Assembly (NCBI RefSeq): GCF_032116555.1 | Contig: NZ_CP134949.1 | Span: 620,001 to 684,000, forward strand | Direction of reading: 5' to 3' | Length of the DNA stretch: 64,000 bases | Origin: Halobaculum sp. XH14 | GTDB lineage: Archaea; Halobacteriota; Halobacteria; Halobacteriales; Haloferacaceae | In this document: piece by piece, positions 5,557 through 53,828 of the stretch | Numbering within the stretch: the first letter of the stretch is position 1 | How the letters are laid out: each line of letters begins with the position of its first letter | Notes under the pieces: model-generated | Told to the model about the DNA's origin: nothing | The model's database searches: none | Seen by the model: the letters and a program-made list of their open reading frames with translations, nothing else | Position numbers and translations under genes: made by a program

Positions 5557-5682
5557 CGATTGATCGGCTCGAAAGTCATCGCTATCGTCCTTTCGGGGAA
5601 GTTCGGTCGACGCTCCGACTGCCTCGAAAGCCCTCGGTGTATCGTATTCAGACCTGTCTCGGGTATCAGTGACGCACGCCTC

Positions 5683-5801
5683 GAAAGCCCCCTCGGCTGT
5701 CGACTCGGTGCGACTGCTGTGCTCCTCGGCTCGCTACGCTCGCCTGCGGTGCTTGACAGTCGCGCCATCGCCGACAGCCGAGGCCCCTTTCAGTCCCACC
5801 C
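5683..5801 (+). repeat. palindromic element A, copy 1
   Basis: The ends are GAAAG at 5683-5687 and CTTTC at 5787-5791, which pair. A 3x3 CCC/CCC mismatch follows, then a perfect 12-bp arm, cctcggctgtcg (5691-5702) with cgacagccgagg (5772-5783). The 69-base interior contains the module tgcggtgcttg shared with the other copies. The right end is ggcccctttcagtcccaccc (5782-5801), identical over 20 bases to the copy near 53.7 kb. A structured DNA or RNA element is inferred; mobility is not shown. Confidence 0.75.
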
Positions 5802-5820
5802 GACCGCACCGCCACCGCAC

Positions 5821-5935
5821 CTCACCCTCCCCAGCCTCCTGTGCTCCTCGATTCACTCGCTGCGCTCGTTCACCTGCGGTGCTCGTCCCTCGCGCGCGTC
5901 GACTCACCCCACGAGGGGGTTCGCGTCACGCGCGC
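5821..5935 (+). repeat. dispersed repeat B, copy 1
   Basis: This stretch is similar, in inverted orientation, to 53880-53982. Shared blocks in order are ccctcccca, gctcctcg, a GGTGCTCRTCCCTCGCGCGCG-like core, cccac(g/a)aggggg and cgcgtcacgcg. It directly follows element A1. No coding potential is seen. It may be a separate repeat family or the second half of a composite with A. Confidence 0.6.
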
Positions 5936-5952
5936 CAGCCGGCTGATTCACG

Positions 5953-27496: not shown

Positions 27497-27707
27497 GGGT
27501 TGGACTGAACGGGGCCGCGTCGCTCGGGGAACCCCGACCCCTCAAGCACCGCAGGGAGCGAACGAAGTGAGCGACTGAGGAGCGCAGAGCGGGTCGCGGG
27601 AGGTCACGCGAGCGTAAGCGAGGGTGACTTCGGAAGTCGCAGCCCGCGCAGCGAGCGTAGCGAGCGAGCAGGAACGTCTTCCGTAACCGAGCGACGCGGG
27701 GGCTTTC
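27497..27707 (-). repeat. palindromic element A, copy 2
   Basis: Read on the minus strand this is GAAAG, CCC, the 13-bp arm ccgcgtcgctcgg, an interior of about 159 bases, the matching arm ccgagcgacgcgg, CCC and CGTTCAGTCCaACCC. Plus-strand arms are 27515-27527 and 27687-27699. The end motif differs from copies 1 and 3 at two bases. The interior is longer than in the others: it has the common module aagcaccgcagg plus an extra block around 27602-27628. Confidence 0.75.
27602..27628 (+). repeat. module C, copy in element A2
   Basis: The segment from ggtcacgcgagcg to agcgagggtgac is repeated at 53829-53854 with a one-base length difference. Its ends (GTCAC and GTGAC) are complementary. It sits inside element A2 here but outside element A3 there, so the repeat blocks appear to be assembled from exchangeable modules. 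Confidence 0.55.
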
Positions 27708-53571: not shown

Positions 53572-53694
53572 GAAAGCCCCCGCTGCTCTCGGCTCGCGCG
53601 CCTCGCTGCGCTCCTCGTCGCTCACTGCGTTCGCTCCTGCGGTGCTTGCGTCGTCGTGCTTCCCCGAGAGCAGCGGCCCCTTTCAGTCCCACCC
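53572..53694 (+). repeat. palindromic element A, copy 3
   Basis: GAAAG (53572-53576) pairs with CTTTC (53680-53684), then CCC/CCC mismatch, then the perfect 13-bp arm ccgctgctctcgg (53580-53592) with ccgagagcagcgg (53664-53676). The interior holds the shared module cgttcgctcctgcggtgctt. The right end ggcccctttcagtcccaccc (53675-53694) is identical to copy 1. Confidence 0.75.
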
Positions 53695-53828
53695 GCCGAT
53701 TAGTCGACCGAGCGTCGTTCCCCCGACTACCGCACGTACCGCCGTCGGTAGTCCGTCGAGGCGTCCGCCCGTCCGGCCGACGGTGACGCTGGCAGCAGGG
53801 GTGCGGTCGGCGCCTGCTTGCGGCTGGC

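Follow-up and report, generated by a model that had tools for sequence, protein, structure and literature searches.

A family of hairpin-defined intergenic repeats, apparently undescribed and probably mobile, in haloarchaea

We wondered what is conserved in three palindromes of a haloarchaeal genome whose arms differ from copy to copy while pairing within each. They lie in the window, the 64-kb stretch of DNA analysed here, at 5683..5801 (A1, plus strand), 27497..27707 (A2, minus strand) and 53572..53694 (A3, plus strand), exactly where the first-pass annotation had placed them. As judged from sequence and fold, A1 and A3 adopt the structure it had proposed: an outer stem of 5 bp, then a 3x3 C/C loop, then an arm of 12 bp (A1) or 13 bp (A3); against shuffled sequences the folds have z-scores of -4.7 and -3.9, respectively. 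In A1, the outer stem occupies 5683-5687/5787-5791, the C/C loop 5688-5690/5784-5786, the arm 5691-5702/5772-5783 and the 3' tail AGTCCCACCC 5792-5801, and in A3 the arms are found at 53580-53592/53664-53676. A2 carries perfect 13-bp arms (27699-27687/27527-27515), additional hairpins in its interior and a decayed right end (CGTTCAGTCCAACCC). The claim that all three share the right end CTTTCAGTCCCACCC was slightly overstated: it holds for A1 and A3, while A2 ends in CCCCGTTCAGTCCAACCC, two changes off.

The surroundings of these copies are partly conserved as well. A degenerate left-end half copy, (CTC)GAAAGCCCTCGG, is located at 5626..5645 (plus strand), exactly 57 nt upstream of the A1 left end. 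Such half copies precede many full copies on the 5' side at exactly this distance, the spacing being kept and the sequence diverged (window 5626-5683; L006, L017, L019, L020 and L043). Downstream of A1 follows a plus-strand module (5802..5940) common to many copies of the window's genus, which consists of a C-rich linker, a second hairpin (CCTGTGCTCCTCG..CCTGCGGTGCTCG) and a third hairpin (TCGCGCGCG..CACGCGCGCC). In other genera, a central dyad sits between convergent copies, and the plus-strand sequence adjoining A3 (53695..53720) might be a remnant of it, a weak resemblance seen by eye. Convergent copies stand 22-27 nt apart with dyad-like sequence (GTnGCnGGTTGGTCAACC) at the centre (L109, L118, L120, L121, L193 and others); a divergent arrangement within 600 bp was encountered just once.

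Are the three copies members of a larger family? Within the 64-kb window alone, the motif count at 3 mismatches did not exceed the chance expectation. Across the window's 3.68-Mb genome, the 14-nt right-end motif TTTCAGTCCCACCC gave 91 matches with at most one mismatch, and the reversed control gave none at the same threshold. A restriction to three copies, which the first-pass annotation had named as speaking against a real family, was not what this search found. Of the 170 genomes in the window's family, 127 contain an 18-nt version of the motif. Class-wide, where C or G was permitted at the stem base of the 18-nt motif (CCCCTTTSAGTCCCACCC), 273 of 391 haloarchaeal genomes had it, copy numbers ranging from 0 to 165 per genome; the reversed motif had three matches altogether in the 391 genomes. 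Haloarcula, Halorussus, Haladaptatus, Haloglomus and Halobaculum are among the named records that carry the element, and genus-specific subfamilies are seen. Of 214 copies, none falls within a gene predicted with our custom gene-calling script. Three genomes of the window's genus hold 85 (G000), 49 (G102) and 73 (G103) copies, and the number falls to zero in some relatives within the same family. The phage collection yielded no match, and in the plasmid matches examined the element region is mostly free of annotated features.

Pairing was counted directly. For an unselected set, the left end was taken as the nearest [GC]AAAGCCC with no pairing rule; the arms of these 223 copies are complementary at 91.2% of 12 positions. 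When arms were dealt among copies, 52% of positions paired (500 deals, largest 55%), and sliding the arms gave 25-34%. The difference is retained in the inner half of the arm (89.5% versus 39% in the arm-pairing comparison) and in the window's own genome alone (88.7% versus 57%). Among copies selected for pairing, Watson-Crick pairs account for 1994 of 2120 arm positions, and 212 copies contain 108 distinct 10-nt arms. The outer stem changes in a compensatory manner: its base pair is G-C in 197 copies, C-G in 25 and G-G in one. The C-G form belongs to one genus, g21, whose left ends read CAAAG with few exceptions and in which all copies listed for G104 have CTTTG rather than CTTTC at the right end. 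CCCGCCC, considered as the g21 variant, was wrong; the variant is CTTTG. The 108 distinct arms and this genus-wide switch support the earlier proposal that pairing, not sequence, is kept. That the arms always pair was too strong, as they do so nearly always and at least one orthologous copy, the A1 counterpart in G102, is unpaired. A family of non-pairing arms, the other outcome that the first-pass annotation had named against it, was thus not what we observed.

The core of the element is an imperfect hairpin. Its outer stem, 5 bp long, reads GAAAG/CTTTC, or CAAAG/CTTTG for the g21 copies. Further in come a C/C loop that is conserved and unpaired, arms that can have almost any sequence as long as they pair, a mismatch in which a T is fixed, and a tip that varies. 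The 3' tail is constant, and sequence conservation ends abruptly past CCCACCC. The inner stem covaries about the fixed T (GCTCC/GGTGC in 45 copies, GGTCC/GGTCC in 10 and GCGCT/AGTGC in 6). Conserved mismatches beside freely varying pairs suggest that it is the imperfect hairpin that has been maintained. Perfectly paired arms with many different sequences could also arise by quasi-palindrome correction, in which intrastrand template switching perfects the arms without selection, and a small rebuilt hairpin in the shortened copy L001 is in line with this. Such correction would remove both the C/C loop and the mismatched T, yet each is conserved, and these fixed mismatches within the stem speak against simple palindrome repair; as the process accounts for neither the dispersal nor the conserved ends, we regard it as highly improbable. 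A comparable design is known from the attC sites of integrons, which are folded single-strand sites with variable paired arms and conserved unpaired spacers and bases, defined by the R boxes RYYYAAC/GTTRRRY and the IntI integrase. The haloarchaeal element likewise combines variable paired arms with conserved unpaired bases. It differs in its conserved ends and in occurring as scattered single sites with no cassette array.

A structured RNA, either non-coding or part of a 3' UTR, would likewise show covarying stems and conserved internal loops, and in some g21 copies TATA-like words precede the left end by 32-41 nt. Arm mismatches on the C-rich strand are G·T in 23 and A·C in 38 cases, which indicates no wobble tolerance there, and the wobble excess on the G-rich strand is weak (p = 0.07). 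Among the clades examined, no promoter at a fixed upstream position was found outside g21, the orientation of copies relative to genes is mixed, and Rfam contains no covariance model that matches the element. These data disfavour the structured RNA considered in the first-pass annotation, and we deem it quite unlikely.

We then compared sites between related species and found places that carry the element in some and lack it in others. In g21, the space between two convergent genes measures ~600 bp and contains the element in G140, G130 and G122; in G127, G124, G119 and G141 the element is missing and the two genes almost touch. In G120 a decayed copy lies beside one of the two genes and the other gene is 12 kb off. 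In this genus, the only one in which terminal inverted repeats were found, the hairpin is part of a unit of ~440 bp bounded by such repeats (GATAGCGGGAGTGGGTATAGCA), and the match between related copies reaches about as far as these ends. Being short, free of ORFs and bounded by terminal inverted repeats, the unit shares these traits with MITEs. Inspection of its copies by eye revealed no target-site duplication, and viral contigs searched with its terminal repeat gave neither a match nor a partner transposon; copies of the window's genus showed no consistent unit ends. In G102, A1 is present, although its two arms are mismatched as though one had been acquired from a different copy; it is absent from G103, where unrelated sequence takes its place. 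This G103 sequence (L267, G103:C1:1487350-1488350) resembles a reversed reading frame. Such site differences might stem from either insertion or deletion. Some copies are common to species at ~85% DNA identity, so many copies are old.

The window's genus additionally contains 16 solo frames that lack the hairpin, nearly all of them CCGCGG, and at the place of two such frames in G000 a full hairpin is found in G102. The exact solo core has no match in other species. These frames may be products of slippage between the CCGCGG repeats, which lie in direct orientation where the hairpin begins and ends.

Which enzyme might move the element? A Y1/RAYT transposase was considered and rejected: PF01797 is absent from G000, G102 and G103 despite their 85, 49 and 73 copies. 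G101 has 11 PF01797 matches and no element copy. No gene family is enriched beside the copies, the largest being found at 8 of about 150 loci, and no transposase cluster is evident among these families, which were grouped without formal annotation.

The literature searched offered no match by motif letters and, by concept, only the PATE and SMR elements of Haloquadratum walsbyi. In the portions of Dyall-Smith et al., 2011 (PMC3119063) considered here, both are transposase-free and palindromic with no target duplication reported; the inverted ends of SMRs bear no relation to known transposons and the movement of SMRs is unexplained, and PATEs derive from IS605-type transposons. Compared by description only, the present element resembles both in being haloarchaeal, transposase-free, palindromic and without target duplication, and the g21 unit agrees with SMRs in these described features through its inverted ends and the lack of a visible target duplication. 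An IS200/IS605 derivation as for PATEs would involve a Y1 (HUH) transposase, which is missing from the whole of the window's genus here. Class-wide spread, free arms and a genus-wide stem switch are not described for SMRs or PATEs in those portions. Bacterial REPs and REPINs with RAYT transposases (PMC3733652) are likewise short, imperfect, intergenic palindromes with many copies and inverted doublets (here convergent, 22-27 nt apart), and CGTC REPs also have no dedicated transposase (PMC3733652). The element differs from them in having neither a GTAG or CGTC tag nor a RAYT, the triplet before GAAAG at the left end being CTC, CGC or CCA.

Taken together, we favor a non-autonomous, transposase-free, hairpin-defined family of haloarchaeal mobile elements that is REP/REPIN-, SMR- or MITE-like, at a probability of about 0.62. 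Of the options raised at the outset, a mobile element is favored by the dispersal, the site polymorphism and the g21 terminal inverted repeats; the structure-reading enzyme that was proposed to move it is the part that we infer. A trans-acting enzyme would read the folded single strand (or a cruciform) plus the tail, so that only copies with intact pairing would multiply. Arms could then drift between lineages provided that pairing holds, and copies that no longer move would decay.

A protein-bound cruciform is possible, and selection might maintain the element as a DNA-structural site of the host, at which a chromosomal protein binds a cruciform or a G-quadruplex/duplex hybrid (GGGTGGGACTGAAAGGGG-[hairpin]-GGGGG on the G-rich strand). 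REPs, for instance, bind gyrase. Consistent with such a site, the C-tracts vary least in the G000 copies that have one mismatch, taking 4 of the 26 changes over 6 of the 14 positions, solo frames retain all four tracts, and in tandem gene pairs the G-rich strand is the sense strand in 77 versus 44 cases (p = 0.003), a modest bias. In a G4-aware fold of a solo frame, the four-tract G4 was marginally best (-7.2 versus -7.1, RNA parameters), but none was chosen for one full-length copy. The sequence-specific TTTCAGT is left unexplained by a host site, and most copies look dispensable given decayed copies and relatives in the family with none. We consider this explanation improbable.

A stronger version of the mobile-element reading is a new kind of haloarchaeal transposition or recombination system, in which a trans-acting non-Y1 enzyme would recognise the stem, the unpaired C loop, the fixed T in its mismatch and the tail of the folded DNA, the stem sequence being free and genera switching stem letters together. 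We put it forward tentatively, as a doubtful but real possibility. The family is apparently undescribed, as this abundant repeat, placed between genes in many genomes throughout the haloarchaea, was not found in the literature searched. Its members present a clear target for finding the enzyme, and the change of both stem sides across all the copies of a genus provides a natural experiment on how structure is recognised.

The element may also mark points of chromosome rearrangement. The flanks of two copies are swapped between genomes (L015 and L019 in G000, L087 and L089 in G102), which places rearrangement breakpoints at element-bearing intergenic regions. The interiors vary further: those of L060, L066 and L012 contain additional perfect hairpins in arrays with TGATG/CTGACG-like linkers, and a second interior type (L126, L201-L207), common in Halorussus, carries conserved CATATC..GATAG motifs.
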